63,203 nt of DNA, from positions 1 to 63,203 of IMG/VR virus record IMGVR_UViG_3300027969_000101. One strand, written 5' to 3'. The first letter of the stretch is position 1. Each line of letters opens with the position of its first letter. This DNA comes from a virus. The notes under the pieces are model-generated. The model saw only the letters and a program-made list of their open reading frames with translations. It had not been told where the DNA came from and made no database searches. Positions 14,693 to 36,137 of this stretch are shown here, one piece after another. The translations under genes and the position numbers were made by a program.

Positions 14693-14693
14693 G

Positions 14694-17496: not shown

Positions 17497-18441
17497 ATGA
17501 TATACGGGTTTGAAAATAATCGGTTCTATATAGACATCACATCTTGTAAACGTCCCCATGGTAACATGAAAGAAGAGTGCGACCAACGTGCCCGCGAACT
17601 TGGCAGCACCGGTGAGAAGTTACTGTTAGGCTTGAGCGGCGGGTTAGATAGTCAATGCATTTTACACAGCTTCAATCAACAGGGTATACCTTTAGAAACT
17701 GTATTCTTTTATATGCCTGGCTGTAATGATAACGAGTATGAGCAAGTAAAAATATTAGATAAAAAATACAGTATTAAGACCCAGATACTAGATATTGATC
17801 CTATAGCAGTTAAAGAAGAGATCATAGAGACTAGCAAGCTACTTGATATACCAGGTAAGAACAACGTACTGCAAAGAAAGTTTTTAAGTATGTTGCCGGA
17901 CGAGTGCAATTTTATACAAAATACACACGATCCATTCGTAGTAGTGCATCCTGATTATAAAAACTTAACATATTTTACTGGGTACTATCATCCCGAAATA
18001 GCCCGGCACCGTGCGTTTGAAAGTTTAAATAGAAAAGGAAAGAATATCTTTTACGGCGATACCCCAGAATACTTAGCGTCAATTTTAGACGACGACGTGT
18101 TTAGAGGGGCAATTATGTCTGCTAGATACTTTGATGAAAATGGTGCTATAGTGCCAAATAAGAATCTTAAAACTTATGATAGATGGGATTATTATATAAA
18201 GCCAATTATCTATGGTAAGTATTGGGGAGATGAGTTAATTTACTTTCCAAAATATGCCGGATTTGAAAAGATTGAATATCTGCACGGGTACAATCCGTTG
18301 ACAAAAGATGCCGTGATGATTCCGTATAATGAAGTTGTAAATTTTCTAAATAAAAATGATAATAGTACTCAAAGATATTATTATAACATACCTAAAGATA
18401 GAGAAGGACTAAATAATGCAATCACAGCTATTACTAACTAA
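17497..18441 (+). CDS. PP-loop ATP pyrophosphatase-like protein (1 of 5)
   Basis: 314 residues. The N-terminal domain has the PP-loop LSGGLDSQ (about residues 46-53) that binds ATP pyrophosphate in enzymes of the asparagine synthetase / QueC / NAD synthetase group, which adenylate a substrate before amide or thiol transfer. A conserved C-terminal phrase YYIKPIIYGKYWGDELIYFPKYAGFE is shared with the paralogue at 27091. No glutaminase or zinc-ribbon domain is present, so the substrate is unknown. The GNAT gene starts inside its 3' end. Confidence 0.75.
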   Translation: MIYGFENNRFYIDITSCKRPHGNMKEECDQRARELGSTGEKLLLGLSGGLDSQCILHSFNQQGIPLETVFFYMPGCNDNEYEQVKILDKKYSIKTQILDIDPIAVKEEIIETSKLLDIPGKNNVLQRKFLSMLPDECNFIQNTHDPFVVVHPDYKNLTYFTGYYHPEIARHRAFESLNRKGKNIFYGDTPEYLASILDDDVFRGAIMSARYFDENGAIVPNKNLKTYDRWDYYIKPIIYGKYWGDELIYFPKYAGFEKIEYLHGYNPLTKDAVMIPYNEVVNFLNKNDNSTQRYYYNIPKDREGLNNAITAITN

Positions 18442-18877
18442 AGCTGATAGTGCAGGCAACCAAATCAATTACTATCGATTTGATGCACTTGCACACAGTC
18501 CGGCATACACTTTCTTTTTAAGAGAGTTAGCTAACCTTATAGATTCAGGATATGCACATCCTATTACCAGTTGGGAAGACCAAGATTGTGCGTGTATATA
18601 CGCAGAACATGACGGACAAATTATCGGTGCTATTGTATATAGTACACGTACTGTAAGCAAACAAGGATCTGTTTGGTTAGTAGTTGGTTCTGTTATTAAG
18701 CAATATCAAGGTCTAGGAATTTATAGAGTTCTTAGAACATTGCTTGAAGATATAGCTAGAGAACTAGGATGTTGGGGAGTTGCTAGTTATATACATGTTA
18801 AGAACCAATCTGCTTTAAAGATGGCGGAAGCATTAGGTGCCCGCCCAGTTTATTATTACATGGCTAAGAAAATATGA
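18416..18877 (+). CDS. GNAT-family N-acetyltransferase
   Basis: 153 residues. The acetyl-CoA binding signature is QYQGLGIYRVLRTLLEDIAR (Q-x-x-G-x-G, motif A), preceded by the strand SVWLVVGSVI and followed by VKNQSALKMAEALGARPV (motif B region). The substrate is unknown. It overlaps the PP-loop gene upstream and the oxygenase downstream by a few bases, so the three are made together. Confidence 0.8.
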   Translation: MQSQLLLTKADSAGNQINYYRFDALAHSPAYTFFLRELANLIDSGYAHPITSWEDQDCACIYAEHDGQIIGAIVYSTRTVSKQGSVWLVVGSVIKQYQGLGIYRVLRTLLEDIARELGCWGVASYIHVKNQSALKMAEALGARPVYYYMAKKI

Positions 18878-20356: not shown

Positions 20357-21577
20357 ATGGCTTTAAAATTTAGAAGAGGCAGTAATGCATCGAGACAGAC
20401 AATAACGCCTGCTGAAGGCGAACTATTATATGTAACCAATCATGTGGCACAAGCAGTTAGTCCGCTATGGGTTGGGGACGGATCTACTGCCGGGGGTAAG
20501 GCGGTGCAAACTGTAGTTAGCATCAATTCACAAACTGGAGCTGTTGTACTTACAACTGACAATGTTACTGAAGGCGCAACTAACAAATATTATCTTGCTG
20601 AACGAGCACAAGACGATGTTGCGGCGGCATTGGTTAACGGAGTTCATACTGGAATTACCTTTACCTACAATGATAGCAATAACAGGATAGATGCGGCAGT
20701 TAATTTAAATTTAAATGCATTGACCGATGTAATTGTTAATAGCCCAGCGTCGAGCCAAGTGCTAAAATATAACGGATCAAATTGGGTAAATTCTGCTAAT
20801 ACCGAAGTAACTCCGCAACTGGCAATAGGCAATGAAGGCTTCCACTATGTTCCTTTTTTACCAAATAACAATGCTAGCTCTGTTCTAAAGACACACCAAG
20901 TATTGTATACCCCAGCTACATTAACTCTTTCAGCACCAGTACTCAGCGCCCCAAGTATTATAGGATCAACACTTGGTGTACCGAACATCACAACTAGTAA
21001 AATTACAGCACCTGGTTTGATAACATTGTATAATACTGCAAATACTTCAGCGGAGGGTTTTAAATTAATAAATTTTGGTGATAACACAAATGACGGGCGG
21101 GTTGGTATTGTTACTAGTACATTTACTACTACCAGTGTGTTCCAAATATCACAAGCACACAACACACCTGATGCCGTTAATGCAACTTTCTTTAGAGCCA
21201 GGAGTTCATCTGTTTCCCCATCTGCAGTACAAGCAAACGATGACATTATTGACATAGCATTTGCTGGCTTTGATGGTACTTCTTATCAAACAAAGGCCGC
21301 CATTAGTGCCACTGTTGATGGTGTAGTATCGACTGGGGTTGTTCCTACAAAAATAACTATATCTACTTCGGGAACAGTAGGAACACCTGTTGTAGCACTA
21401 ACTGTAGATTCTAAACAGCAAGTTTCTTTTACAAGTGCAATGCGATTAGCGGTATATGCCGATAATACAGCTAGGGATACAGCCATTACATCACCTGCGG
21501 CAGGTATGATGATATTTAATACCACCAGTACCAAGTTCCAAGGTTACACTGGCTCTGTTTGGGTTGATCTCAATTAA
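20357..21577 (+). CDS. tail-fibre-like structural protein
   Basis: 406 residues. The start MALKFRRGSNASRQTITPAEGELLYVTN...PLWVGDGSTAGG is the small beta domain at the N-terminus of many phage fibre proteins. The C-terminus RDTAITSPAAGMMIFNTTSTKFQGYTGSVWVDLN is the equally typical end repeat. The middle is beta-rich and low in charge. It probably contributes to host recognition or virion decoration. It has a GGAG ribosome binding site and sits as a lone structural gene in a metabolic island. Confidence 0.8.
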   Translation: MALKFRRGSNASRQTITPAEGELLYVTNHVAQAVSPLWVGDGSTAGGKAVQTVVSINSQTGAVVLTTDNVTEGATNKYYLAERAQDDVAAALVNGVHTGITFTYNDSNNRIDAAVNLNLNALTDVIVNSPASSQVLKYNGSNWVNSANTEVTPQLAIGNEGFHYVPFLPNNNASSVLKTHQVLYTPATLTLSAPVLSAPSIIGSTLGVPNITTSKITAPGLITLYNTANTSAEGFKLINFGDNTNDGRVGIVTSTFTTTSVFQISQAHNTPDAVNATFFRARSSSVSPSAVQANDDIIDIAFAGFDGTSYQTKAAISATVDGVVSTGVVPTKITISTSGTVGTPVVALTVDSKQQVSFTSAMRLAVYADNTARDTAITSPAAGMMIFNTTSTKFQGYTGSVWVDLN

Positions 21578-21587: not shown

Positions 21588-22259
21588 TTAAATAATTTTT
21601 GCTAACTCAACAGCTGACAATTTTACAGGTTCGGGAAAGGGTCTTGGGTCGCTAAACCCTATTACGGTTTCTTCTTTTATTACAGGATTGCGCCCTATAT
21701 TATTATCAGCTAAACCGATAGATAAAAATATAACTGGCCATTCGTGTTCATCAATATTTAAAATAGACTTAGCAGTTGATTCTATAAAACAAGCTGTAAA
21801 TGCAGTACTGTACCCAAGAGATTCGGCTTGCATCATGGAAAAACTTGCAGCCACCATAATATCTTTTTCAGCTCTAGAACGTATAGTATATCGAGTCTTA
21901 GCATCGAGCAAACTTGTATTAGTATTCATATGCTGTTCTCGAACTGAAGTATTATTTGATTCTAAACCCAAATCATAGTTATCTAAGATAGGAACTCCAA
22001 TCCATGCTAAGACTAAAGGTGCTTTAGCTGTTAGCAAGTGCTTATGAACAGGTGTGTTGATAAAACTGTTTAGGAATAATTGATTCTTTAATTCAACAGC
22101 TGAATTACTTTGAGTTAGTGCTACTACTCTCCAAGGATACGCTCTTTGTTTACTAGGAGCAGAACAGCCTGCGGCTAGTATTGTATCAATATCTTCTTGA
22201 GGTATTGCATTGTCTGTAAATGCACGTTGAGTTTTTCGATTTAGAAATATGTTCAGCAT
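21588..22259 (-). CDS. nitroreductase-family FMN protein
   Basis: 223 residues. The N-terminus RKTQRAFTDNAIPQEDIDTILAAGCSAPSKQRAYPWRVVAL is the standard nitroreductase FMN-binding start (R-x-x-R, then IP-x-ED-x-x-IL-xx-G--APS). MVAASFSMMQAESLGYSTAF matches the later helix. Such enzymes reduce nitro compounds, quinones or flavin, or act in tailoring reactions. On the minus strand, preceded by tandem TATAAATA motifs. Confidence 0.82.
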   Translation of the reverse strand: MLNIFLNRKTQRAFTDNAIPQEDIDTILAAGCSAPSKQRAYPWRVVALTQSNSAVELKNQLFLNSFINTPVHKHLLTAKAPLVLAWIGVPILDNYDLGLESNNTSVREQHMNTNTSLLDAKTRYTIRSRAEKDIMVAASFSMMQAESLGYSTAFTACFIESTAKSILNIDEHEWPVIFLSIGLADNNIGRNPVIKEETVIGFSDPRPFPEPVKLSAVELAKII

Positions 22260-22303: not shown

Positions 22304-22810
22304 ATGAATGCGCTATTATTTTACTGGAAATACATTGACCTAGACTTAACCGAAGTCAACAGAATTAAAGAAGATTATCTAAAACATCTCCCTAGTAATT
22401 TTCATTTCTTTCAAGAAGTCAACATAGCAAACAGAACCTTTATGGGGATGGAAATTCTAAGATCTGTGTTAATACAGGTAGAGCCGAATGCCGTAGGACG
22501 AATACATACAGACTTTAGACCGAATAAAAACTTTGGTGATCAACTGGCGATACAGATTCCTTTAGAAAATTGCGAACACAGCATAACTGAATTATGGTCC
22601 AGTGATTACAAACCGCCAGTACAGTATACCCATAATGGTCAGCCTTACAATTATTTCGATAAATCTAGATGCGTTAAGGTCTCTGAATTTACACTTACAC
22701 AACCTGTGATATGGCGTACTGATGTTCCACATAGTGTGAGCAATTCCAGTGATAAATCTAGGCTAGCAATAAGTTTAAGATTTAAAAAAGACCCGTGGGA
22801 TCTTATTTAA
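22304..22810 (+). CDS. 2OG-Fe(II) oxygenase-like protein (168 aa)
   Basis: GRIHTDFRP (HxD), LAIQIPLENC (strand), PVIWRTDVPHSVSNSSD (distal His) and RLAISLRFK (Arg) outline a minimal dioxygenase core. TGTAAATA ends 4 nt before ATG 22304 and no Shine-Dalgarno is seen, so the mRNA may be leaderless. Confidence 0.72.
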   Translation: MNALLFYWKYIDLDLTEVNRIKEDYLKHLPSNFHFFQEVNIANRTFMGMEILRSVLIQVEPNAVGRIHTDFRPNKNFGDQLAIQIPLENCEHSITELWSSDYKPPVQYTHNGQPYNYFDKSRCVKVSEFTLTQPVIWRTDVPHSVSNSSDKSRLAISLRFKKDPWDLI

Positions 22811-23505
22811 TGGGTATGTTGTAAATTAGCAATTACTTTTGAAACATTCTCAGTAGTAAACGGAATGTTCAAAATTAAGTGTTGACTATTATCAACCCAA
22901 CTTATAGTACGGTGCGTCATGCGTGTATTGACATAGTACACTTGACCCATTTGTATATTCATTTTCCTATCGTCCATTAGCCAGTCGTATTGTAATGGCC
23001 CGCAGTTGTGTAAAAATACAATTAGTCTAAAACATTCACGAGGCATACTAGGATGATCGCGATGCGGAACAAAGTATCCTCCTGTATTACTCTGCACAAT
23101 AAATGTTCGGCCTAGAGGTTGCCATTGTTCAAGGAATGGATGTAGGCTAGAGCAAGCACGATACACATCGGTAGGTTGATCAAACTCAAGTTCACTTAAT
23201 CTTCGGCCAGCGGCATAACTAGCTTCAGCAAGACTAGGAACATCTTTGTGCGATTTTCCAGGCAAGTTTGTAAGCGTCAATGCTCGACGATTGTTGGGCC
23301 TGTCAGTTCGCGGAAGATAATCAACCCAGTCATTGTCAAATTGTTTTATTTCTTGTGAGTATTGTTCAAGGTTGATTTGAATATTTAAAGGTTCAAACGG
23401 TCCAAGGTTAAGCAAAGCTAGTTCGTTAGCTAGCGTTTCTTGACTAATCAAATTTGGATCGTAGTATGCGGCACGGCCGCTAACTCCTGGGGGTATCTGC
23501 GTCAT
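22807..23505 (-). CDS. 2OG-Fe(II) oxygenase, Asp/Asn-hydroxylase-like
   Basis: 232 residues. GGYFVPHRDHPSMPRECFRLIVFL contains an HRD ligand motif of the aspartyl/asparaginyl beta-hydroxylase type, followed by GQVYYVNTRMTHRTISW with the distal His. It converges with the gene at 22304 (4-base overlap of ends). TATAAATA stands 5 nt upstream of the start codon. Confidence 0.7.
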   Translation of the reverse strand: MTQIPPGVSGRAAYYDPNLISQETLANELALLNLGPFEPLNIQINLEQYSQEIKQFDNDWVDYLPRTDRPNNRRALTLTNLPGKSHKDVPSLAEASYAAGRRLSELEFDQPTDVYRACSSLHPFLEQWQPLGRTFIVQSNTGGYFVPHRDHPSMPRECFRLIVFLHNCGPLQYDWLMDDRKMNIQMGQVYYVNTRMTHRTISWVDNSQHLILNIPFTTENVSKVIANLQHTH

Positions 23506-23510
23506 GGAAA

Positions 23511-23518
23511 TATTTATA
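23511..23518 (-). promoter_or_regulatory. late-type promoter TATAAATA
   Basis: Minus-strand TATAAATA ending 5 nt before the start codon of the gene at 22807-23505. Confidence 0.55.
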
Positions 23519-23548
23519 CAAGCGGGTAATCGTCATAAATATTTCATA

Positions 23549-24169
23549 ATGAAATACTATCGTCAAGTTAACCTTCCGCCAATCCCTACCGAATTATTGT
23601 GGTTTCGATCTTCCATAGATCCAAGCCAGGTGATGACGGTTGATGATATTGGATATGGATATAACCACAAAAAAGGCAATCGCGATCTTGTTTCATGTAG
23701 GTATGTTCGTGCAAGGATTAAAGATTACAAACCATTAATGGATTGGCTTAATCAAACTATTCCATATTTGGACCCGTCGTTAATAGTAATAGCTCAGCTA
23801 CAAGAATCAAAAGAAAATATGCCTAGCACCCATATTGTACATTCTGATATAGGCAGAGAGTTTGCCTTAAATTACATAATAGATACAGGCGGCGATGCGA
23901 TTACCAGCTGGTACCAAGAAAACGGCAAACAGATTTTTCGTACAAAAATTCAAGGAGGCAAGCAATCCGACAGTGGATTTGTTGACTATAATAATTTGGA
24001 ACTGTTAGAATCAGCAGTACTTGAAAAAAACAAGTGGTATTTAATATCGACTAATGTGTTGCACGATGTAGATAATATCATTGGATCTCGAAAAAGTATC
24101 AGTATAGGAATATTCAAGACCAACACAGAACTACTAAATTTTCTAGGAATAACAAATGACACAGAATAA
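23549..24169 (+). CDS. 2OG-Fe(II) oxygenase-like protein
   Basis: 206 residues from ATG 23549; the frame is open from 23504, but that ATG overlaps the divergent gene's start and promoter. IVHSDIGREFALNYII (HxD), NVLHDVDN (distal His) and RKSISIGIFK (Arg) support the fold. CATAAATA lies 7 nt before the ATG. It overlaps the SDR gene by 14 bases. Confidence 0.65.
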   Translation: MKYYRQVNLPPIPTELLWFRSSIDPSQVMTVDDIGYGYNHKKGNRDLVSCRYVRARIKDYKPLMDWLNQTIPYLDPSLIVIAQLQESKENMPSTHIVHSDIGREFALNYIIDTGGDAITSWYQENGKQIFRTKIQGGKQSDSGFVDYNNLELLESAVLEKNKWYLISTNVLHDVDNIIGSRKSISIGIFKTNTELLNFLGITNDTE

Positions 24170-24905
24170 AGTTGCGGTAATTACCGGTGGGTCGGGCCAA
24201 CTCGGATCTGCAATATCTTATGCCCTTGCACATCGCGGAGTTCAAATTGTATCCCTTGTTAGAAAAAATTTAACTATCGCACAGTCTATGTTAGATCAGT
24301 TGCCAAACTCAGAATTAGGACACATTGCGATACTGGCATCGGTCACTGATTCTGGATCTTTAAAAGAAGCCGCTGCACTAGTAAATTTAAAAATTGGAAG
24401 GTGTGATATTCTTATAAACAATGCTGGCAGAAATGCTCCAAGACCTGCAACTTTAGAAGGGTTAACAGATGATATGATTGATGATATCATTGATACGAAT
24501 ATTAAAGGAACAATCTTAACCACAAGAGAATTTTTAAATTTATTAAAAAAATCAAACGATTCAGTCATTATTAATATTTCTTCTGCATCAGGGAATAGGC
24601 CTTCAAGAGCTAATCCGTTGTATGCAGCATCAAAGGGTGCGGTCGACGTATTAACAAAGGCGTTGGCCAATTTCCTTGCTCCGGAAATAAGAGTAATTGC
24701 CGTTGCTCCAGCATGGTTGCCACTTCCTGTTTCCGGTATAACTCAAAAACGTACTCCTGAACAAGAAGAATTTGTTAAAAAAACTATACCTCTACAAAAA
24801 ATTTCAACAGCACAGGATGTAGCAGAGGTCGTAGAAACTATTGTTTTTGGAATGAAACAACTGACTGGGTGTGTTATACCAGTGGACGGCGGAGTCACTA
24901 TATGA
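24156..24905 (+). CDS. short-chain dehydrogenase/reductase
   Basis: 249 residues with the classical SDR pattern: TGGSGQLGSAI (NAD(P) binding), NNAG (residues about 88-91), catalytic Ser in INISSASG, YAASKGA (Tyr-x-x-x-Lys), and a C-terminal VIPVDGG. This places it in the FabG-like subgroup acting on 3-oxo or hydroxy compounds. It is translationally coupled to the next gene (ATGA). Confidence 0.88.
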   Translation: MTQNKVAVITGGSGQLGSAISYALAHRGVQIVSLVRKNLTIAQSMLDQLPNSELGHIAILASVTDSGSLKEAAALVNLKIGRCDILINNAGRNAPRPATLEGLTDDMIDDIIDTNIKGTILTTREFLNLLKKSNDSVIINISSASGNRPSRANPLYAASKGAVDVLTKALANFLAPEIRVIAVAPAWLPLPVSGITQKRTPEQEEFVKKTIPLQKISTAQDVAEVVETIVFGMKQLTGCVIPVDGGVTI

Positions 24906-25780
24906 GCACAATTATAACTTGTGCTATTACAGGAGCAGTTACTTCTAGAGAACAAACACCTTATCTGCCTGTTAGTCCCGAAGAAATAGCTGTATCGAGT
25001 CTAGAAGCGGCCGAGGCAGGAGCTTCCGTAGTCCATATTCATGTTAGGGATCCTAAAACATCATTACCATCGATGGATGTTGAATACTATAGAGATACCG
25101 TAGATAGAATTAAAAAAGAAAACAATAGAGTGATAATCAATCTTACAACTGGGCCGGGAGCATACTATCTACCTAGTATGACTAATCTTGCACAGGGTGC
25201 TCCTTCATCTTTATTACTAATGCCAGATAAGCGTGTAGAACATGTAGAGTTAATACGTCCGGACATTTGTTCAATAGATTTTAATACTATGCATCAAGCC
25301 GGTGATGGTATAAGAATAAATCATAGACGAATAACTAGAGAAATGGTAAAACGTGTACAAGCAGTTGGATGTAAACCAGAATTAGAAATTTTTGATAGCG
25401 GAGACTTCCATATTGCACAAGAGTTTGTAGCAGATGGTACTATTGAAAGCCCGCCACTATGGCAGTTTGCTATGGGTATCAAATACGGTTGGTCAGCTAG
25501 TCCAGAAACACTAGACTATGCTCGTAGGCAATTACCTGCAGGAGCAGTTTGGTCAGCATTTGGTATAGGACGGATGGAAATGCCTCTAGTAGCACAAAGT
25601 TGGTTATATGGCGGTCATGTTCGTGTAGGATTAGAAGATAACATATATCTTGAAAAAGGAGTCCTAGCAAAAACAAATGCCGAACTTGTAGCTAAAGCAG
25701 TGAGAATAATAAAAGATCTCGGGGGGCAGGTGGCCGACTGCCAAGAGTCTAGACAAATACTTAATTTATATCAAAGATAA
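24902..25780 (+). CDS. BKACE-family (DUF849) beta-keto acid cleavage enzyme
   Basis: 292 residues from ATG 24902, which overlaps the SDR stop. Family landmarks: ITCAITGAVTSREQTPYLPVSPEEIA, GASVVHIHVRDP (HxH zinc ligands), NLTTGPG, and KPELEIFDSG. BKACE enzymes condense a beta-keto acid with acetyl-CoA and release acetoacetate and a new CoA ester; the true substrate differs among members. With the SDR it could form a short beta-keto acid route. Confidence 0.85.
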   Translation: MSTIITCAITGAVTSREQTPYLPVSPEEIAVSSLEAAEAGASVVHIHVRDPKTSLPSMDVEYYRDTVDRIKKENNRVIINLTTGPGAYYLPSMTNLAQGAPSSLLLMPDKRVEHVELIRPDICSIDFNTMHQAGDGIRINHRRITREMVKRVQAVGCKPELEIFDSGDFHIAQEFVADGTIESPPLWQFAMGIKYGWSASPETLDYARRQLPAGAVWSAFGIGRMEMPLVAQSWLYGGHVRVGLEDNIYLEKGVLAKTNAELVAKAVRIIKDLGGQVADCQESRQILNLYQR

Positions 25781-25819: not shown

Positions 25820-26764
25820 TTATTTTGATTGGATTTTGCTTACTAAGCCTGGTGTAAAATAATTTTCAAACTTAGTGTAAACTACTTCAGTTGCTTTGGC
25901 AAAACGAGCTTGTTCAACTTCGCTCATTTTAATAACTTCAATGCCATCAGCTTCTGCACGAGCTTGTACCAATGCAATGTCTGCAATGCTTAAAGTACGC
26001 TCAAAACGTGCGGCAGCTTTTGCGCTTTCAGAAACAATATCTTGTAAGTCGCTGTCTAATGAATTCCAGAAGTCAGTACCAATCAAAATAGTTGTTAAGA
26101 ACAAGCTGTGTTCTGTATGGTTAATAACTTTAGAAACTTTGTTATGTCCTAGTGCATATACACGTGGGTATGTGCTTTCACCAACTGTCACATTAGCAGA
26201 ACCTAAGTTCTCTGATAGTTCTTCAAGTTCCATCGGAACAACATCTGCACCTAATGTACGGAATGTTTCAATAGCAACTGGGCTATGGCTTGTACGTACT
26301 TTCATGCCACGTAGGTCTTCAATCTTAGCAACTGTCTCGTTACCTGGAATAATACGGAAGCCACCTGAGTATGTAAATGCTAGGCCTTTAACTTTACGAT
26401 TTTCTTGTAAGCTGTCTAACAACTGTTTGCCAACTTCGCCTTCGAATACACGGCTTGCGTGATCGTGACTCTTAAACAAGAATGGTAAATCTAACGCAAA
26501 GAAGTCTTTGTTAAGTTTACCTAATGTAATTGTGTAGGTCTGTGACATTTCGATATCACCAGCGTCTAGTAAGTCAACAAGATCATGCTTACCTACAACA
26601 ACGCCATTGTTATACTTTTCAGCGTATTCACTCATAGTCATAACTTCAATTTCAAGTTGACCAGGTGCTCTAGTGTTTACTTCTTCAGCAAATACTTTGG
26701 CAGCACGGATAAACAACTCGATCGGTTCATGTGCTAGAACCCATTTTACGTGTTTTTTGCTCAT
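25820..26764 (-). CDS. TRAP-transporter solute-binding protein (DctP family), no signal peptide
   Basis: 314 residues. WVLAHEPIELFIRAAKVFAEEVNTRAPGQLEIEVM, GFRIIPGNETVAKIEDLRGMKVRTSHSPVAIETFRTLGADVVPM and LSENLGSANVTVGES follow the DctP fold and its ligand-binding Arg region. These proteins normally bind organic acids in the periplasm, but this one starts MSKKHVKWVLAHEP with no hydrophobic signal sequence. ATG 26764 has GGAG upstream; the extension to 26806 does not add a signal either. Confidence 0.82.
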   Translation of the reverse strand: MSKKHVKWVLAHEPIELFIRAAKVFAEEVNTRAPGQLEIEVMTMSEYAEKYNNGVVVGKHDLVDLLDAGDIEMSQTYTITLGKLNKDFFALDLPFLFKSHDHASRVFEGEVGKQLLDSLQENRKVKGLAFTYSGGFRIIPGNETVAKIEDLRGMKVRTSHSPVAIETFRTLGADVVPMELEELSENLGSANVTVGESTYPRVYALGHNKVSKVINHTEHSLFLTTILIGTDFWNSLDSDLQDIVSESAKAAARFERTLSIADIALVQARAEADGIEVIKMSEVEQARFAKATEVVYTKFENYFTPGLVSKIQSK

Positions 26765-26819
26765 TGTTAATTCTCCAATATTTAACGTTAAATTTGTGTA
26801 GGTCATGACTCCTACACGT

Positions 26820-27090: not shown

Positions 27091-27999
27091 TTAGTTTAAA
27101 TTATTCCATGTACTTTCATAGAATTTTTTAGTATCAGTGCTTGTCAATAAAAAATTAAGTAATACGTCTTTTTCAACAAACACCATATGTTCCCTTTTTG
27201 TTTCATTATTTAAGTTTGCTAACCACGGGATATTTTCAAATCCGGCAAATTTAGGAAAGTAAAATAACTCATCTCCCCAGTGTTTAGCGTACAATAAAGG
27301 TTTTACATAAAACTCATATCGAAATACATCGTGTAATGGTTCCCCTCTACGGGTAATAGTTGGGTCGTTATAAAATTGCCAACTCTTTAAAAAATAATCA
27401 ATTACTTCGTCGCTGATGACACTTGCAAAATATTCGCCAGTGCTACCAAACGATTTAATGTTGCCCGTTCTTTGTATTTTAGACAACAACTGGATTCTTG
27501 ATATCTCAGGATCGTAAAAACTATGATACAAATAATGTTTACCACTAGATTTTTTAGTTACAAACCATGGAGTATGTACTTGTATTATATCGTGTTCTTT
27601 TGGCATTTGATTAACAAACAAGTAATGTAAAGCATGGTGAGGATTTGTGTCATGTGCGTTAGCTAAATGCAAACATTCGTCTCTGTTTTTCTCTGGATCG
27701 ATTTCTATAATGTTAGTTTTAAAACTGTACTTACGCTCAATAGTTTTCAAATTTTCAAATTCAGAATCATTAAATCCCTTAAGATGCATAAAGTAGCAGT
27801 CTATAGGAATGCCCTGAGATTTAAAACTATGGAGTGCAGTTTGGCTGTCAAGCCCTGAGCTTAGACATAAAATAAGTTTATTGTTAATAGCATATAATCT
27901 TTGCGCTTCGAGATCGGACTCGTGTCGAATGTTAGTAGGTGGGCAAGTACACCCACTATACTCAACATAGAACCTATTATCTTCAAATCCATAATCCAT
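27091..27999 (-). CDS. PP-loop ATP pyrophosphatase-like protein (2 of 5)
   Basis: 302 residues from ATG 27999, chosen by alignment with the paralogue at 17497 (MDYGFEDNRFYVE versus MIYGFENNRFYID); the frame extends to 28044 only through duplicated sequence. The PP-loop is LSSGLDSQ, with Ser for the second Gly-region residue seen in the other copies, so catalysis could be altered. The C-terminal phrase FYVKPLLYAKHWGDELFYFPKFAGFE matches the paralogue. Confidence 0.75.
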   Translation of the reverse strand: MDYGFEDNRFYVEYSGCTCPPTNIRHESDLEAQRLYAINNKLILCLSSGLDSQTALHSFKSQGIPIDCYFMHLKGFNDSEFENLKTIERKYSFKTNIIEIDPEKNRDECLHLANAHDTNPHHALHYLFVNQMPKEHDIIQVHTPWFVTKKSSGKHYLYHSFYDPEISRIQLLSKIQRTGNIKSFGSTGEYFASVISDEVIDYFLKSWQFYNDPTITRRGEPLHDVFRYEFYVKPLLYAKHWGDELFYFPKFAGFENIPWLANLNNETKREHMVFVEKDVLLNFLLTSTDTKKFYESTWNNLN

Positions 28000-28000
28000 C

Positions 28001-28132
28001 ATATACTTATTAAGCCCCAGGTAAATAATCGATGAAACTGACAAACTTAGCCTACGCTAAATTAAATATACTTATTAAGCCCCAGGTAAATAATCGATGA
28101 AACTGACAAACTTAGCCTACGCTAAATTAAAT
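28001..28132. repeat. 65-bp exact tandem duplication
   Basis: 28001-28065 is repeated exactly at 28066-28130 (2 further bases match). The unit carries the start region of the divergent PP-loop gene on one side and the first 12 codons plus promoter-like GGTAAATA of the oxygenase gene at 28097 on the other. The left copy of the start (ATG 28032) is out of frame and ends after 18 codons. Confidence 0.95.
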
Positions 28133-28939
28133 TTAGAATTTGATAGGGAAGAATTTACACAAGAATACGACAAAGTAATAATCCCTCTATCCAAACGGCG
28201 AGCCAATTTTTACGATCATATGTTAGAAACCCGCGAGTTAAACAAGGTGTGGGGAATGGTTCCTGACGAGATTTATGATCAATCTGATTGCATTAAACTT
28301 ACAAATCAGACAAAGCAATTTGTACAAGGTACACATCGTAGCTGGCTTGCATATCAAATGCTAGAGATTGCTAATGTTGACACAATTGTTGATATAGCAA
28401 CACTTACTTCTAAATCTCTAGTTGAATCTATCAAAAATAAAGATTGGGTTGCATCAAGAATGTCAACTTTAGATGCTGAGTATAAGTTAAAAGATGAGTG
28501 TAAGGATTTAAAAATAGTTAAATGGATCTATGAAAATTTACCTTTTTCTAAACTAAACAGTATATCGTGTATTGCTCTACAACCGAATAGCTTCAGCGTT
28601 ATACACCGAGATCGATTCTACCAAAAAACTGAAATTAATCCTGTACATAACATCATTGCAAGGAAAGGATATATTATTATCAATATTAATATAACTGACG
28701 GTGGGTCACCTCTGTGGTGGTCATTAGATAACGACATGGTAAAAACCCCGTTTAAAGCCTACGATAAAGTTTTTTTAACTAATGATCATTTTTTACATGG
28801 AGTATCTCTTTGTTCTAGCACCCGGCGTCAAATACGTGTTTGCGGCAAGCCGACTGATAATTTTCTAAAGTTGCTTGATTCTAACACAATTATTGACCTA
28901 GGCAATGATTATAATTACAGCAACAAAATAATCATATAA
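28097..28939 (+). CDS. 2OG-Fe(II) oxygenase-like protein
   Basis: 280 residues. FSVIHRDRFYQK (HRD), KGYIIININITDGG (strand), DHFLHGVSL (distal His) and RRQIRVCGKP (Arg) form the core; the first 150 residues are helical. GGTAAATA ends 4 nt before the ATG and no Shine-Dalgarno is visible. Confidence 0.68.
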   Translation: MKLTNLAYAKLNLEFDREEFTQEYDKVIIPLSKRRANFYDHMLETRELNKVWGMVPDEIYDQSDCIKLTNQTKQFVQGTHRSWLAYQMLEIANVDTIVDIATLTSKSLVESIKNKDWVASRMSTLDAEYKLKDECKDLKIVKWIYENLPFSKLNSISCIALQPNSFSVIHRDRFYQKTEINPVHNIIARKGYIIININITDGGSPLWWSLDNDMVKTPFKAYDKVFLTNDHFLHGVSLCSSTRRQIRVCGKPTDNFLKLLDSNTIIDLGNDYNYSNKIII

Positions 28940-29348: not shown

Positions 29349-30221
29349 ATGAAGTTTTTAAAAAATAACTACTTACGCACAGTAGGGAACGGTCCAACAT
29401 TTAACGTTGAAATAGATCCTCCAAGTAATAAAACTGCTAACTATCATCAAGTATCAAAACAAGTAGCAGAACAAGTTTACGAAAATAAACAAGGGAAGTT
29501 GTACTTAATGTACAGCGGAGGAGTCGATAGCGAGTATGCATTAAACATATTCCTGTCTTTAGGTATTGATATAACCCCTGTTATCATCAAGCTAACTCCT
29601 AATTATAACATTCACGATATACAATATGCTTTAGATTTTTGTCAAAATAAAAATCTAAAGCCCTTAATAATCGATATCGACTTTGACGATTTCATCAAAT
29701 CAGGAAAATGTATAGAAATTGCATTAGCCTCAAAGTGCGCCGCATTTCAGCTAACGCCTACTTTCTATGGTGTTAGTCAGCTTGACGGAACTGTAGTAAT
29801 GGGAAGTCACGGACCTCCGCATATGAAAAAACTAGATAGCGGTGAATGGGTTGTTGATGAGCTAGAAATATTTCATAGTGTTTTAACGCACTTTGAAGTT
29901 AATAAAATACACGGGTGTCCTTTTTTCCTAGCGCATACCCCAGAGCAATACTTATCATTTTTATTGCATCCTATAATGCAGGATCTTGCAAATAATAAGA
30001 TTCCCGGAAAGTTAGGTAACCATTCTACTAAAGGCCTTGTGTTTAATCAACTTAGCGGATTTGAATTACAACGTAGACCAAAGTATACAGGATATGAAAC
30101 TATCGAGTCAGCAGAAATTTTTAAACACGAAAACATAAAATGGTTTGATACTGTTAAAGATAAATGGTGGGGAATTTACGAAGAAAACTATTTTGACCTA
30201 ATAGCAAGGCTACAAAAATAA
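29349..30221 (+). CDS. PP-loop ATP pyrophosphatase-like protein (3 of 5)
   Basis: 290 residues. MYSGGVDSEYALN (about residues 54-66) is the PP-loop, followed by a Rossmann-like adenine-binding layout (ITPVIIKLTPNYNIHD, PLIIDIDFDDF). The C-terminus ends with LSGFELQRRPKYTGYETIE, reminiscent of the AGFE phrase of copies 1 and 2. It overlaps the following gene by one base. Confidence 0.75.
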   Translation: MKFLKNNYLRTVGNGPTFNVEIDPPSNKTANYHQVSKQVAEQVYENKQGKLYLMYSGGVDSEYALNIFLSLGIDITPVIIKLTPNYNIHDIQYALDFCQNKNLKPLIIDIDFDDFIKSGKCIEIALASKCAAFQLTPTFYGVSQLDGTVVMGSHGPPHMKKLDSGEWVVDELEIFHSVLTHFEVNKIHGCPFFLAHTPEQYLSFLLHPIMQDLANNKIPGKLGNHSTKGLVFNQLSGFELQRRPKYTGYETIESAEIFKHENIKWFDTVKDKWWGIYEENYFDLIARLQK

Positions 30222-30769
30222 TGTATGCAGTTACTTGGATCCCAGGATCAGATAGCAAGCTAGATAGCATATTTGATTCTTTAAGAGGAGAACAATACCA
30301 AGATCGAACTCACCGGTTGTGGGGAAACTATAGCAAAGAAAATTTTAATTTTGCTGTAGCATTAACAATCTATTTTGAAAACGATGTTCCGTTACTATGC
30401 TCTAGTATTGCCGGCAGACCTTGTTGGCCGGAAAACATTTATCGTATTTTAAATCGAACATGGAAGCCTGCTAATAGATTAACTTGGCCAAATGGTGTTG
30501 GACAAAATTGGGCCATTACACTATCTAGTCAAATTAATTGGCTTAAAGAAAATACAGAATGTAAATTGTATTTTATTAGTAGACAAAAAGCTGGTTGGGA
30601 AGATTGGTGTATAAGAAGTTTTAAAAAACACGGACTAGAATTTAAAACAGATAACTATAAGTATCTAACTTGCCCTAACGAATGTGATTCTACATGCTGG
30701 CAGAAGATAATTTATAATGGCTCGGAGGAATTATTGTCGCAATGGAATCGTCAACAAAACAAATTATAA
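30221..30769 (+). CDS. hypothetical protein (182 aa), partner of PP-loop gene
   Basis: Begins MYAVTWIPGSDSKLDSIFDSLRGEQ; has a middle strand-rich part (FNFAVALTIYFENDVPLLCSSIAGRPCWP) and a Cys-rich end (CPNECDSTCWQKII). The middle recalls GNAT-like proteins, but no acetyl-CoA motif is clear. It is translated as a unit with the PP-loop gene upstream and the desaturase downstream. Confidence 0.65.
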   Translation: MYAVTWIPGSDSKLDSIFDSLRGEQYQDRTHRLWGNYSKENFNFAVALTIYFENDVPLLCSSIAGRPCWPENIYRILNRTWKPANRLTWPNGVGQNWAITLSSQINWLKENTECKLYFISRQKAGWEDWCIRSFKKHGLEFKTDNYKYLTCPNECDSTCWQKIIYNGSEELLSQWNRQQNKL

Positions 30770-31560
30770 AAAACATGTTTACTATACCTAATCTCTTGGG
30801 TAGTGTTATACCTCTTCAAATATTTGGAGTATGGGCTCTTTATAAATTATTTGAAGGCTCTGCACCAAGCTGGTGGATATTTGCAACAATAGTTGGATAT
30901 ATTTGTATTAAAATTTTAGGTGTAACATCTTGCTACCATAAAATGTTAAGCCATAAAGGCTTTACAACTACAAAATTCATGCGAAGACTAATGCTGTGGT
31001 TTGCGTTAATATCCGGCCAGGGAAGTCCAATCTTTTGGGTGTTGGTTCACCGAGGATATCATCACAGGTATACAGACAAAGCAGGCGACCCGCATAGTCC
31101 AAAAGAAGGATTTTGGCATAGCTATGTTTTGTGGATGTTTAAACTTCAAGAAGGAAGTATGAATTCTAAATATGTTATTGAGCTTTTAAGAGACGATGAC
31201 TGTGTATTCATTCATAAACATTATATAAAATTGTTATGGGCTAGCCATCTAATAGTTGCGCTAATAAGTGTTGACCTGTGGCTGTATACTATGATGCTAC
31301 CTGCTTTCATTACGTTCCATAGCTACAGCATACAAACAAGTTTAGGTCACAATCTCAAATTAGGTTACACTAATTATAAATTAGATAACGATGCTGTTAA
31401 TTTACCCTGGTTATTTCCGTTCATTTTAGGAGAATGCTGGCATAACAATCACCATGAGGATCCGCAAAACCCTAACTATGGTGGAAGACGTTGGTGGGAA
31501 TTAGATCCTGGCTACTGGTTAATTAAACTTATTAGAACTGATCACCAATCACGTTCATAA
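30742..31560 (+). CDS. fatty-acid desaturase, delta-9 type
   Basis: 272 residues, integral membrane. Three His boxes are visible: HKMLSHKGF (HxxxxH), HRGYHHRYTD (HxxHH) and HNNHHEDP (HxxHH), the diiron site of acyl-CoA/acyl-lipid desaturases. Four hydrophobic segments lie between them. It would introduce a double bond into membrane acyl chains. The start overlaps the preceding gene. Related enzymes occur in some aquatic phages. Confidence 0.88.
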   Translation: MESSTKQIIKNMFTIPNLLGSVIPLQIFGVWALYKLFEGSAPSWWIFATIVGYICIKILGVTSCYHKMLSHKGFTTTKFMRRLMLWFALISGQGSPIFWVLVHRGYHHRYTDKAGDPHSPKEGFWHSYVLWMFKLQEGSMNSKYVIELLRDDDCVFIHKHYIKLLWASHLIVALISVDLWLYTMMLPAFITFHSYSIQTSLGHNLKLGYTNYKLDNDAVNLPWLFPFILGECWHNNHHEDPQNPNYGGRRWWELDPGYWLIKLIRTDHQSRS

Positions 31561-32795
31561 GTAGACATATAGTGTTTAATATAATCTTGTACACTAGGGT
31601 CATCAATACTTAATACGTTATAGTCACTGTCAATACCAAACCTTGCGTTAGGCCGTAGTTCAACAGGAACATTGCTAACATCTTGATGGAACATTATATT
31701 AGGAGCAAGGGATCCTAGTTTTAATTTAAAATAAAAATACCAATCATTTTTATCTAAATCATAAATGTACTTACGAGCGGCCATTTTATAAGTAGTAGCA
31801 CCTAGTCCAATCTTCTCACCATTATTGTTATTCACCATAGACCAACGTTGAAAATCATCCGTGCTACCCCAATTCATAGCCCAATCATTTATTACACTTT
31901 GGTAGTTTTGTCTATCACTTAAGAATACAGATGTTCTAATAGCACAACTAACCCATTTAGTATTAAACAATAACCACCAATAATAGTCATGCAAACTTAC
32001 AATAGGAACTGTTGCAGTTTGTATATTCTTTTCAAACTTATCATACCAAGATGCTCCTAGTTGTTTATTGCTAGGAATATTCCAGTGTTCGATAATCAAA
32101 TCTTTAAACTGCGAATAATGAATATCACTCGATGTCATCTTATTGCGTATACTAGACAAGTGTGTTTGTGACTCAGCAGATAAATTTTGTATATAGTATT
32201 CAAAGTTCTGTTGTAGCTCTAAGAATCCCATAGTGCCAAATAAGCAATCGCCCTCGTCTGCGGTAATGGGTCTGTACCCATCTGCAATTAGATTATCGTA
32301 CTTTGTTACAGAAGAGTCGTACATCTTAAAATTGCCCCAGATAAATTTTTTCCAAAAAGTTGGATTTTCAATCATTGAATATGAATTGGCACAAACTGCA
32401 ATATTTTTTAATTCTTCTTTAGACAAGTTCTTTATCAAGGCGGCCATTATAATAGTACTGTCAATACCTCCAGAGTACATAACAGCAAATTTTTGATTTT
32501 TAGAATTAATTAAACCTGCAATTTCTATCGCACGTTCGTCACATATTTGGCCATATGATTTATTAAAACTAGGATCATAAGATGGCATCTCAAACCCTGG
32601 CGGAATATCCTGTGGCCAAGGCATGGACCATTCTCCGTTTCGACTAACAAATCTCTGGGGCTTATAATATATTCCTAAATCAAGCATAAACTTCCCACCA
32701 CTTCCGGATTCTTGTCTAATGCTTTCCCAAAACTGTTCTTGATAGTAATTGTATGTAATACCGCTTAGGTATAATTTTTTATTTAAATCTAGCAT
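31542..32795 (-). CDS. PP-loop ATPase, asparagine-synthetase-like (4 of 5)
   Basis: 417 residues from ATG 32795, which overlaps the stop of the upstream partner gene. MYSGGIDSTIIMAALI (about residues 105-120) is the PP-loop and the layout resembles the C-terminal synthetase domain of AsnB without the glutaminase half. It converges with the desaturase gene (19-base overlap). It is the second gene of a two-gene pair. Confidence 0.75.
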   Translation of the reverse strand: MLDLNKKLYLSGITYNYYQEQFWESIRQESGSGGKFMLDLGIYYKPQRFVSRNGEWSMPWPQDIPPGFEMPSYDPSFNKSYGQICDERAIEIAGLINSKNQKFAVMYSGGIDSTIIMAALIKNLSKEELKNIAVCANSYSMIENPTFWKKFIWGNFKMYDSSVTKYDNLIADGYRPITADEGDCLFGTMGFLELQQNFEYYIQNLSAESQTHLSSIRNKMTSSDIHYSQFKDLIIEHWNIPSNKQLGASWYDKFEKNIQTATVPIVSLHDYYWWLLFNTKWVSCAIRTSVFLSDRQNYQSVINDWAMNWGSTDDFQRWSMVNNNNGEKIGLGATTYKMAARKYIYDLDKNDWYFYFKLKLGSLAPNIMFHQDVSNVPVELRPNARFGIDSDYNVLSIDDPSVQDYIKHYMSTYERDW

Positions 32796-33610
32796 TATGC
32801 TACCCACATTGTTTGTTGATTTTTATCTTTATCTAAGTTTCCAATGTTTCCTAAATCGTACAAATCTTTAGGTTGTTCTAATTGCATATTATAATAAAAA
32901 AATTGTCTAATTCCGGTTACTTCGCTTGAAGTATAACTTCTCCAAGAATTATGAATACGTTCTAATGCTTCTTCAACACTGTCTGATTCATATAATATTG
33001 TTTTAATTGAAGATTCAATGCCCTCATCGCTACTAGTTCCATCTACTCTAGCTATAAAGTCTTTAGGATATTCTCCATTGAAGAATGTATCAATATAGCT
33101 TCTTTGTGTAAATGAATTTCTAAAACATAGCGCGGCAGTTAGTGCGTGTACAACTCGTAAACTAAACAAAGCATACTCTTGTAGTTTTAATAACATTGCT
33201 TTGCGATCTGGCTCTTGGAATTCTTCAGGCCATCCTCTATGCACCATCATATTGGGTTTAATCTTCATAGCAATAGTTGATTGTCTGTGGGCATACACTA
33301 TGGGGCCACCGTACTGCTTATCAACCATTTTATGTGAGGTTGTAAATTCTAAGCAATTTGAATTATCCATATCGGGAGTTACCTGATCTAAGATATAAAC
33401 AACGTTAGAACACTTCGACGATAATATTCTCCCCGTTTCAAATACTATCCACGGATCATAGCTATCTACTAAGAAAAATCGATCTATGCCCGGAGAAAAT
33501 AAGACGTAACTATTTTTCTTGCCCCAACTCATTGGATAATAAGTTTGGTGAAAGCCGGCATCGCCCGACATCCATGGTTTGTCTGATTCTGGTAAAGGAG
33601 TATGGCTCAT
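32795..33610 (-). CDS. unknown partner protein A of PP-loop gene (271 aa)
   Basis: Begins MSHTPLPESDKPWMSGDAGFHQTYYPMSWG and has a beta-rich first half and a helical second half. Near the C-terminus the phrase EEALERIHNSWRSY matches the phrase LMRIHAIWRKY in the protein at 36134-36841. Both genes stand directly upstream of a PP-loop gene on the minus strand. The shared RIHxxWRxY motif suggests a partner family. The function is unknown. Confidence 0.7.
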   Translation of the reverse strand: MSHTPLPESDKPWMSGDAGFHQTYYPMSWGKKNSYVLFSPGIDRFFLVDSYDPWIVFETGRILSSKCSNVVYILDQVTPDMDNSNCLEFTTSHKMVDKQYGGPIVYAHRQSTIAMKIKPNMMVHRGWPEEFQEPDRKAMLLKLQEYALFSLRVVHALTAALCFRNSFTQRSYIDTFFNGEYPKDFIARVDGTSSDEGIESSIKTILYESDSVEEALERIHNSWRSYTSSEVTGIRQFFYYNMQLEQPKDLYDLGNIGNLDKDKNQQTMWVA

Positions 33611-33642: not shown

Positions 33643-33655
33643 TGCGCATATTAAT

Positions 33656-33663: not shown

Positions 33664-33667
33664 ATTT

Positions 33668-35083
33668 ATGTTAGAGACAATTACAAATATTGGCAAAACT
33701 ATCGACTTATATGCCGGGCCATCAAAAGTTGCAATAATCGACCTTAGCCATCCTGAGCCAAAATCAATAACTTACCAGGAACTTGATAACATGGCCGATG
33801 CTGTTGCCCGTGTGCTGTCTAGTCAAGGAATACAAATTGGTAACAAGGTCGCTATGCTGGCCGATAACTCAATAGAATATGTGGCAACATTTTTTGGAAT
33901 TATGAGAATAGGTGCAATACCGGTACTTATTAATAATAAATTAACACCGGAGCAAATATCTTTTATTGTAAATGAATCAGAATCAAAACTAGTCCTAACT
34001 AAATTTGATGAGTATCTAGATTACGGTGGATTTGAAACATACCAGCCCAACGAAGAAGACCCTGCATTTTTATTATATACTTCCGGTTCTTACGGTGATC
34101 CAAAAGGTGCAGTATTAACCCACAAGAGACACGCTTGGTCTATTTTACGATATACAACTAATGATAAAGCATGGAGCTCTAAAAGAATTACTTTAATATC
34201 AGCACCTTTATATCATGCTAACGGATTAACAACTTTAGAAGGATCCATTGCGGGACATTCTACAATAGTGTTATTACCAAAGTTTGATGCCCAGATTTGT
34301 TTACAATCTATAGAAAAATATAAAATTAATACTATCTACGGTATCCCAACTATGCTTGCTATGATGATGCAAGAATCCAATATAAGTGATTTTAATTTAA
34401 CATCAGTTAGACAAATTCGATTAGCATCATCTCCTATGAGTCAAAAATTAATTGATAATATTAATCGATATTTCCCTAATACTATCATTACTAACAATTA
34501 CGGAATTACAGAAGTAGGGCCTGGATTGTTTGGAGCGCACCCGGACAACTTACCCCGACCCCCCGCTAGTGTAGGCTATCCGTATCCGGGTATTGAGTAT
34601 CGGTTAGTCAACGGTATATTAGAAATTAAAAGTCCTAGCATGATGACTTCGTACTACAAACGAGAAAACCCATCAATCACTAAGGATGGATTCTTTATTA
34701 CCAATGACCTTTTTGAAGTAGACCAACACGGGTTTTACTATTTCAAAGGCAGGGCAGATGATATGTTTAAATGCGGAGGGAATAGTGTTTATCCAAGCCA
34801 AGTTGAAAAACTTCTTGAAAAGCATCCAAGTGTTGCTTCTGCGTTCGTTCTAGGGTTGCCTGATGATATCAAAGGATACAGGCCTTATGCCTTTGTTATT
34901 TTAGAAAGAGGTTCTACCACAACGGAAGAAGAACTAAAAGAGTATACTTTACAGAACGGCCCTGCTTACCAGCATCCGAGACGTGTATGGGTTGTTGACA
35001 GTTTTCCTTTGGCAGGAACTAATAAAATTAATAAAAAAGAATTAGAAAATATAGCTGTTAGTTTGTTAGCCAATCAGAAATAA
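33668..35083 (+). CDS. AMP-forming acyl-CoA synthetase / adenylate ligase
   Basis: 471 residues with all ANL-superfamily landmarks: LLYTSGSYGDPKGAVLTH (P-loop-like A3), NNYGITEVGPG (A5), FFITNDLFEVDQHGFYYFKGRADDMFKCGGNSVYPSQVE (A7-A8 hinge) and the C-terminal Lys in GTNKINKKEL. It adenylates a carboxylic acid and passes it to CoA or a carrier; the acid is unknown. Shorter than typical enzymes (about 500-550). It converges with the PP-loop gene at 35058. Confidence 0.88.
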   Translation: MLETITNIGKTIDLYAGPSKVAIIDLSHPEPKSITYQELDNMADAVARVLSSQGIQIGNKVAMLADNSIEYVATFFGIMRIGAIPVLINNKLTPEQISFIVNESESKLVLTKFDEYLDYGGFETYQPNEEDPAFLLYTSGSYGDPKGAVLTHKRHAWSILRYTTNDKAWSSKRITLISAPLYHANGLTTLEGSIAGHSTIVLLPKFDAQICLQSIEKYKINTIYGIPTMLAMMMQESNISDFNLTSVRQIRLASSPMSQKLIDNINRYFPNTIITNNYGITEVGPGLFGAHPDNLPRPPASVGYPYPGIEYRLVNGILEIKSPSMMTSYYKRENPSITKDGFFITNDLFEVDQHGFYYFKGRADDMFKCGGNSVYPSQVEKLLEKHPSVASAFVLGLPDDIKGYRPYAFVILERGSTTTEEELKEYTLQNGPAYQHPRRVWVVDSFPLAGTNKINKKELENIAVSLLANQK

Positions 35084-36137
35084 AATTTTCTTTGGTGTAA
35101 TAATCAAACAATTTAAAATCTTTTGCTCGTATTTTAGTATGTTCTGAATCTATAGCAACATACGAATCAGCCGCATAATAAATTGTAGCAGACGGGTGTT
35201 TAATCTTTTTATCAAAATAATCTTGATCTTTGGTATAGTCAAAAATTAATTTTTTAAAATCGTATTTAAAATCCGAAAGAGTAGTTATTTTTGATTGCCT
35301 ATGATTTATCGACCATTGTTGCAGTTGGGGAGAACTAAAGAATGTCTGTATGTCTACAGGTATGTTAGTTCTTAATTTAATTTTTTCATGTGCCCACTGC
35401 CAGCGCCAACAAAAACTTATCCACCACGAAAAGTCATAAACAGTTTCTATGGGCCTGGGCGACTTGCTTGCTGACAACATATAAATGTCATACCAACAAT
35501 TGGCAGATTTATTAGACATTCCGTGATCTTCAAAGAATTTTACTATAATATTTCTTGTTGGTTTTTGTTTTAAAGATTCTCCTCCATAGAGGTTGAAAAA
35601 ATCTATGCCAAACTCTTGTCCGTACATGCAGTCGCCTCGCTCGCAACTTAACACAATACCATCAACACCGGTAAATTTTATTCGTTGCATAAACTCCTCA
35701 GAGGCTACTAACTTAAAATTTCCCAATATATGATTTTGGTAAAAATTAGAATGTTCTCTTATACTGTCTCTGTTGCAAACAACTACTAATTGATCTTTTG
35801 TTGCGCCAGCCTGGATAAAAGAAACTAGCGCCATAGTAGAATCTATGCCGCCGCTCCATAAAAAATAAATTAATTTTTGAGATGATAGTATATCATTAGC
35901 TCTTGTCAACGCACAATCTAATAAATCCATAGATAGCTGATTTGGGAATTCTATTATCTTATTTTCTTCTAGCACTACATTTCTAAAAGGCAATGCTACA
36001 GACTCTGTTCGATCAACTAACCAAGATCCTGGTATGACTTTTAATATATCTTTATAGATGTCTATGTCAGGACGATTATTTAATAAATTTTTTTGATCTT
36101 TTATTTCAAAAGAACAAGATACGATCAATGACTTCAT
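35058..36137 (-). CDS. PP-loop ATPase, asparagine-synthetase-like (5 of 5)
   Basis: 359 residues. FLWSGGIDSTMALVSFI (about residues 97-113) is the PP-loop. Later phrases (RGDCMYGQEFGIDFFNLY; WWISFCWRWQWAHEKIKLR) echo DEGDCLFGTMGFLELQ and WWLLFNTKWVSCAIRTS in copy 4, so copies 4 and 5 are closer to each other. It is coupled to the partner gene upstream by an ATGA overlap. Confidence 0.75.
   Translation of the reverse strand: MKSLIVSCSFEIKDQKNLLNNRPDIDIYKDILKVIPGSWLVDRTESVALPFRNVVLEENKIIEFPNQLSMDLLDCALTRANDILSSQKLIYFLWSGGIDSTMALVSFIQAGATKDQLVVVCNRDSIREHSNFYQNHILGNFKLVASEEFMQRIKFTGVDGIVLSCERGDCMYGQEFGIDFFNLYGGESLKQKPTRNIIVKFFEDHGMSNKSANCWYDIYMLSASKSPRPIETVYDFSWWISFCWRWQWAHEKIKLRTNIPVDIQTFFSSPQLQQWSINHRQSKITTLSDFKYDFKKLIFDYTKDQDYFDKKIKHPSATIYYAADSYVAIDSEHTKIRAKDFKLFDYYTKENFISDWLTN

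Follow-up and report, generated by a model that had tools for sequence, protein, structure and literature searches.

Large marine phages (cyanophages) possess hypervariable metabolic islands that carry 2-oxoglutarate (2OG) oxygenases, desaturases and PstS, the phage PstS being thought to feed uptake through a host transporter. In general, the accessory metabolism of phages is mostly known as single borrowed genes. PP-loop enzymes, i.e., N-type ATP pyrophosphatases, include TilS, MnmA, TtcA and ThiI, which act on tRNA. Here, an island with five stand-alone PP-loop proteins among tailoring enzymes and solute-binding proteins was investigated in the IMG/VR virus record IMGVR_UViG_3300027969_000101, the full 63,203 bases of which are referred to as the window. 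A literature search found no description of such PP-loop-rich islands. The window contains 33 tRNA genes and a tmRNA (1.7-15.1 kb), a homologue of rIIA and also an ATP-dependent DNA ligase and thus represents a fragment of a large tailed phage. Its cargo region (about 17.5-39.4 kb) is regarded as a hypervariable locus of an uncultivated jumbo phage group. We give an even chance to the reading that this locus and its relatives hold exchangeable small-molecule cassettes, which are arranged around glutaminase-free PP-loop ligases and passed among jumbo phages.

A motif scan of the SxGxDS type detected the PP-loop signature in exactly five of the 55 translated open reading frames (ORFs) of the window, in agreement with the first-pass annotation of this DNA. 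These are A (17497..18441, plus strand, SGGLDSQ, 314 amino acids), A' (27091..28044, minus strand, SSGLDSQ), C (29349..30221, plus strand, SGGVDSE), D (31542..32807, minus strand, SGGIDST) and E (35058..36137, minus strand, SGGIDST). The two paralogue pairs proposed in that annotation proved homologous by BLASTP, with 36% identity over 296 amino acids for A and A' (E 4.5e-66) and 27% over 278 amino acids for D and E (E 4e-12). Moreover, profile alignments with hhalign revealed homology over most or the full length of D and E (E 5.7e-46) and additionally joined C to the first pair, as its homology to A covers most of the protein (E 1.3e-27); A and E have only the PP-loop region in common. Thus, the five proteins form two families, namely group I (A, A' and C) and group II (D and E). 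A maximum-likelihood tree separates A and A' into two supported clades that each include relatives from other phages, which indicates an ancient divergence and rules out a recent local duplication. The PP-loop motif is preserved throughout the families, which argues against decay, and all 41 D and 10 E sequences carry SGGxDS unchanged. The E family further features the consensus segment SGExxDQLxG (alignment A7), and lysines close to the C-terminal end of the domain are invariant in both the D and the E family. According to the family alignments, the likely start of A' is an internal ATG near 28002 (the ORF start being TTG) and that of D is ATG 32795, giving 417 amino acids.

None of the five reached the models of described families. 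A Pfam search of all of them yielded sub-threshold PP-loop matches only, with neither a glutaminase nor a substrate domain, as had been claimed before. In D and E, about 95-110 amino acids precede the PP-loop, no class II glutaminase was matched N-terminally by Pfam, and PF00733 (Asn_synthase) gave no match at E 0.1. The previously suggested comparison with QueC, AsnB, TilS and LarE left QueC (Pfam, 18.3 bits for A vs a cut-off of 22, no match for A' and C), TilS (N-terminal domain, TIGR02432, 15.8 bits for A vs 93.6) and LarE (TIGR00268, 20.2 bits for D vs 150) below their cut-offs, and AsnB emerged as a weak nearest fold of D. Likewise, NadE (TIGR00552) remained at 19.9 bits for A vs 63.65, so that the NadE/QueC-like core of the A family, seen in an alignment of 43 sequences (A8), stays below every cut-off. 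The C-terminal CxxC zinc-binding cysteine cluster of QueC is absent from the A, A' and C sequences and present in a true QueC-like family of other loci. PADLOC defence models matched QueC only (A: 23.9 bits across 62 residues; A': 16.3 bits), with nothing beyond the PP-loop motif, and the PHROGs matches were weak throughout and of the QueC-like or PAPS-reductase kind. Among PDB sequences, the best link was found between the C profile (A3) and NadE 3p52 (2.4e-7), the A profile matching NadE 2e18 at 0.0075. Direct homology to QueC, NadE, TilS, LarE or MnmA was rejected, as the PP-loop segment alone matches, and this below the cut-offs; a nitrile synthetase (9lei/9leh) was discarded as a relative of E, since E 0.037 over 34 residues is not evidence. 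Thus, a curated model is lacking for both protein families.

The relatives of these proteins occur nearly exclusively in viral contigs. The D alignment found 46 loci and the A alignment 66 loci in IMG/VR, and a search of 84,980 bacterial and archaeal species genomes with the D alignment resulted in two loci, both on contigs of metagenome bins (61 kb and 504 kb). All fetched loci together comprise 104 contigs in 69 non-redundant groups, the longest contig having 524,565 bases; single contigs are given below by their L numbers. Among cultured phages, tblastn found no match for A, C, D or a further PP-loop family (B) and one match for E, Pseudomonas phage Cygsa01. Two E-type PP-loop genes of this phage (L013, 10685-12834) are annotated as tRNA-specific 2-thiouridylase MnmA; this label is probably wrong, and they resemble group II of the window. 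Additional PP-loop families inhabit the same neighbourhoods, including family B (SGG[AS]D[ST]), a short family of QueC-like proteins and diverged variants of A, C and D. Family B consists of two subfamilies (L070 7744-8925 and L012 9993-11240) in 25 and 15 contig groups without a Pfam or PADLOC match. Furthermore, L081 (8976-10894) has two tandem A-type PP-loop genes from different tree clades, and in L044 (6260-7990) a phage protein of 576 amino acids that has a signal peptide and a C-terminus resembling an outer-membrane beta-barrel is located directly upstream of an E-type PP-loop gene.

The gene neighbourhood comparison across phages, which had been proposed as a check, revealed that the homologues are not scattered and co-occur with the other genes of the island. 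For this, 30 long viral records, a few of which may be near-duplicates, were searched as a whole with the A, D and C profiles and compared with 2,000 random placements. The records hold 111 PP-loop places, up to nine per record, and 87 of these have another PP-loop within 10 kb (random mean 42.5, maximum 63). Three modules recur. The first one (i) is formed by D and its partner 32795 (32795..33610, minus strand), often with a DctP-type solute-binding protein (25820..26806, minus strand) and sometimes with an acyl/aryl-CoA synthetase-like AMP-ligase (33668..35083, plus strand, PF00501 1.5e-65 and PF13193), a FabG-like SDR oxidoreductase (24156..24905, plus strand, PF00106 5.5e-39) and a beta-keto acid cleavage enzyme (BKACE, 24869..25780, plus strand, PF05853 1.6e-92, 310 bits vs a cut-off of 24.8). 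The closest NCBIfam model of the latter is 3-keto-5-aminohexanoate cleavage enzyme, at 249.9 bits under a cut-off of 382. AMP-ligase, SDR and BKACE genes accompany D in the window, L003, L004, L035, L046 and L119, the SDR family being found in each of these contigs. In the second module (ii), A stands beside family B, often with TctC-type binding proteins, Rieske proteins and nitronate monooxygenases. The third module (iii) comprises C, then a protein without Pfam match (30221..30769, plus strand), which directly follows a C-type gene also in L003, L011 and L057, and a membrane fatty acid desaturase family protein (30742..31560, plus strand, PF00487 4.5e-16). Recurrent neighbours besides these are GNATs, B12-type radical SAM proteins, ATP-grasp ligases and 2OG oxygenases. 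Module order and strand differ between the contigs according to the locus maps. L011 holds A, B, C, D and E types as well and has the same order PP-loop A, DUF2061, DctP as the window.

In module (i), 34 of 36 contig groups encode the D-partner immediately upstream of D. The AlphaFold model of D, calculated from 41 sequences, reached a pLDDT of 93.7 and a pTM of 0.91. In the PDB, the closest folds to this model are those of asparagine, beta-lactam and carbapenam synthetases, with E-values of 4e-3 and worse and TM scores of 0.25-0.36. In a viral structure library, six close folds were detected, which are named asparagine synthase, uncharacterised or unnamed and mainly originate from uncultured phages. 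The model of the D-partner is moderately confident (pLDDT 84.3), and its fold found no PDB match at E<0.001. The E-partner (36134..36841, minus strand) also precedes E in L011 and L085; a common ancestry of both partners was tried and is unsupported (hhalign probability 0.2%).

DctP is present within 3 kb of D in 17 of 36 groups and in 12 of 18 records with full-length D vs none of 12 without it (Fisher p 3.3e-4). BKACE is confined to three of the 30 records, all of them with D and DctP. The DctP domain of 25820 scores above the cut-offs (PF03480, 174.6 bits vs a cut-off of 23.4, E 3.7e-51; NF037995, 139.4 vs 50). According to hydropathy and start position, the signal peptide is absent in 21 of 21 family members: 5-31 residues precede the mature domain in 25820 and its 20 relatives, and none of these proteins shows a hydrophobic leader, which predicts a cytoplasmic location. 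The arginine region of the presumed ligand site, which binds carboxylates in TRAP binding proteins, is retained in 20 of the 21. The strongest clue that the D module works on an organic acid inside the cytoplasm comes from the missing leader together with the retained arginine. Matches to DctP from the phage collection (about 21-29% identity, mostly unannotated or bacterial-looking records) were left unused. The TctC families, unlike the DctP family, have a signal peptide by hydropathy, and at 19 of 22 TctC places a PP-loop lies no farther than 5 kb away, compared to a random expectation of 5.6. In the window, this type is represented by the TctC/Bug-type protein 36949..37902 (plus strand, PF03401 7e-25).

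The island itself is a strand mosaic with eleven strand switches and about a dozen gene units, and the flanking genes examined are mainly on the plus strand. It has a GC content of 36.3% vs 41.3% and 38.3% in the flanks. The cargo extends past 36137, the end assumed earlier, to about 39363. It is enclosed by the tRNA array and the VWA protein 15833 on one side and a block of SprT, 41984 and 42915 on the other, and both also border related islands in several contigs (locus maps). Overlaps of one base between 32795 and 31542 (if D starts at ATG 32795), four bases between 36134 and 35058 and one base between 29349 and 30221 suggest translational coupling inside cassettes. T4-like late promoters (TATAAATA) in front of each cassette were considered and rejected, as they are not enriched in the window (9 vs 8.3 expected), and sigma-70-like promoters (101 vs 78 in shuffles, standard deviation 10) as well as terminators (13 vs 11.5) were uninformative on cassette borders.

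Together, the strand switches of the island and the separable modules that relatives hold in changing combinations point to a pool of exchangeable cassettes rather than one fixed pathway. Accordingly, the characteristic cargo, stand-alone PP-loop enzymes of two phage-enriched families, may travel between phages in small cassettes that also include tailoring enzymes and solute-binding proteins. In the most likely mechanism, the PP-loop enzyme would adenylylate a carbonyl or carboxylate of a small molecule using ATP, with release of pyrophosphate, and a nitrogen nucleophile (ammonia or an amine) would displace AMP, which would create an amide-type bond without the need for a glutaminase. Within the D module, 32795 might act in complex with D, and the cytoplasmic DctP-fold protein could hold the acidic substrate. 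Where present, AMP-ligase, SDR and BKACE would build or break a beta-keto acid, and TctC proteins, having kept their signal peptide, may feed uptake via a host transporter. A more far-reaching version, namely a mobile, modular, natural-product-like chemistry of jumbo phages in which DctP has turned into the cytoplasmic substrate-presenting subunit of a partner-D-DctP ligase complex, seems rather unlikely to us. Several points weigh against the cassette reading in general. No PDB fold match of D reaches E 0.001, so that the reaction type is derived from a weak resemblance. In addition, the 30 records were chosen for holding A or D, and part of the co-occurrence thus reflects selection, while absences carry little weight in fragmentary contigs. 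Moreover, in comparison with natural-product biosynthetic gene clusters, ligases and tailoring enzymes are present, and neither a carrier protein nor a precursor peptide or an exporter was recognised. If the reading is true, large phages would synthesise or alter small molecules, or else their own virion, by a chemistry without known cellular counterpart, using recurring, exchangeable sets of ligases and tailoring enzymes that are nearly unseen in cultured phages and bacterial genomes. The partner-D-DctP module then raises the biochemical question of which acid DctP holds and whether D activates that acid.

The cassettes could also serve the virion, with PP-loop enzymes and oxygenases modifying, e.g., side chains of variable tail adhesins and the partners 32795 and 36134 presenting the protein substrate. 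A tail-fibre-like protein inside the island (20357..21577, plus strand, 41% GC; weak Mtd_N match PF18454 at 0.0029, below the cut-off) speaks for this and against small molecules, as does Cygsa01, whose two E-type PP-loops are located behind a glycine-rich adhesin-like gene and beside baseplate genes. Likewise, a small partner precedes E in several loci, and the locus is hypervariable like tail genes. However, apart from the window, L053 is the only fetched contig in which the 20357 family was found, tail genes were not recognised near most of the mapped PP-loop loci, and BKACE, AMP-ligase, SDR, DctP and TctC are without an obvious function in modifying proteins. We consider virion modification an unlikely but serious rival.

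Strand mosaicism, the lower GC content and the reshuffled order in relatives show an insertion hotspot, at which unrelated auxiliary genes might have gathered without any functional link between the PP-loop proteins and their neighbours. This explanation is clearly unlikely, since adjacencies outlast the reshuffling, as demonstrated by the nearly constant partner-D pair, the restriction of DctP to records with D and the vicinity of TctC to PP-loops. Decidedly improbable is also one linear pathway to one compound that involves all five PP-loops and all of their neighbours. It draws on the concentration of the five PP-loops and most tailoring enzymes within 22 kb and on the A, B, C, D and E types of L011. 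Still, the eleven strand switches, relatives with D and no A or with A and no D, the scarcity of BKACE and the different clades of A and A' contradict it, and the changing gene combinations make a single pathway unlikely. The biosynthetic route suggested by the first-pass annotation is thus retained as a coherent enzyme locus whose families recur with the same neighbours, and a single route is not. Finally, a modification of nucleic acids, above all of the phage's own upstream tRNAs, is highly improbable, because despite the adjacent tRNA and tmRNA genes, the many PP-loop enzymes that act on tRNA and the tRNA-adjacent VWA protein 15833 neighbouring PP-loops in several relatives, the family cut-offs of TilS, MnmA, ThiI and QueC were not reached, no THUMP or other RNA-binding domain was found, and a context of BKACE, DctP, TctC and desaturase is untypical of tRNA modification.

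The labels given earlier to the GNAT, adenylating ligase, BKACE, SDR and desaturase genes were all confirmed by Pfam. The GNAT acetyltransferase (18416..18877, plus strand, PF00583 1.9e-9) overlaps A by 26 bases, and its family is present in 21 contig groups. A nitroreductase-family flavoprotein is encoded at 21588..22259 (minus strand, PF00881 1.3e-17), and a DUF2061 membrane protein (26820..27080, minus strand, PF09834 1.4e-13) is situated between A' and DctP. Regarding the many 2OG oxygenases announced before, a Pfam match supports solely the AspH-type enzyme 38869 (minus strand, PF05118 2.8e-6), which with the putative 2OG oxygenase 38054 (plus strand) forms the right end of the cargo (38054..39363). 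38054 and six further candidates were called by an HxD...H motif only, by eye and with a loose regular expression: two putative Fe(II)/2OG oxygenases without Pfam match (18874-19560 and 19544-20281, plus strand), three without informative Pfam match in 22304..24169 (22304 plus, 22807 minus and 23504 plus strand) and one with HRD...H (28097..28939, plus strand).

Outside the cargo, the tmRNA and the 33 tRNA genes at 1700-15053 are interspersed with small ORFs and provide a nearly full decoding set. Directly after the array follows the VWA/DUF2828-DUF7788 protein (15833-17242), which is far more conserved than the adjoining cargo (86-90% identity in L005-L009) and might be a Ro/TROVE-like protein involved in RNA handling. 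At 57284-62347, a tandem array of four paralogous radical SAM proteins with 22-37% mutual identity is followed by a protein of 266 amino acids; PHROGs labels the four as radical SAM of unknown role.

Compared with described systems, group II resembles the AsnB superfamily (AsnB, beta-lactam synthetase, carbapenam synthetase and TsnB9) most closely. D and E share its SGGxDS PP-loop and a C-terminal YK...K.K block, the SGExxDQLxG segment of the E family recalls GEGxDELFGG of AsnB, and the top PDB fold matches of D belong to this superfamily. As far as the alignments suggest, the segment and the C-terminal lysines may be equivalent to their AsnB counterparts. Unlike the superfamily, D and E lack the N-terminal glutaminase domain and a Pfam Asn_synthase match, the fold match of D is weak, a partner protein of their own accompanies them, and nearly all members are found in viral contigs. 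Group I has the same PP-loop core as NadE and QueC; it differs by remaining below the NCBIfam and Pfam cut-offs, by the missing CxxC zinc cluster and by a similarity that stops after the PP-loop half. The three group I members and D also match the PP-loop segment of the 'QueC-like' phrog_1550, but with E-values of 1e-4 to 1e-2 over 26-72 residues they are not members, whereas family B of related loci resembles phrog_1550 in length and motif position. The DctP proteins correspond to those of TRAP systems in their full domain and ligand-site arginine and deviate from them by the loss of the signal peptide in the whole family and the link to a PP-loop enzyme, with no TRAP membrane subunits seen. 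Altogether, the locus shares with the hypervariable metabolic islands of cyanophages the variable cargo beside conserved core genes, short 2OG oxygenases, desaturases and orphan binding proteins, and differs from them as an island type that is dominated by PP-loop ligases, with up to nine per record, and additionally includes BKACE, an AMP-ligase and a cytoplasmic DctP.

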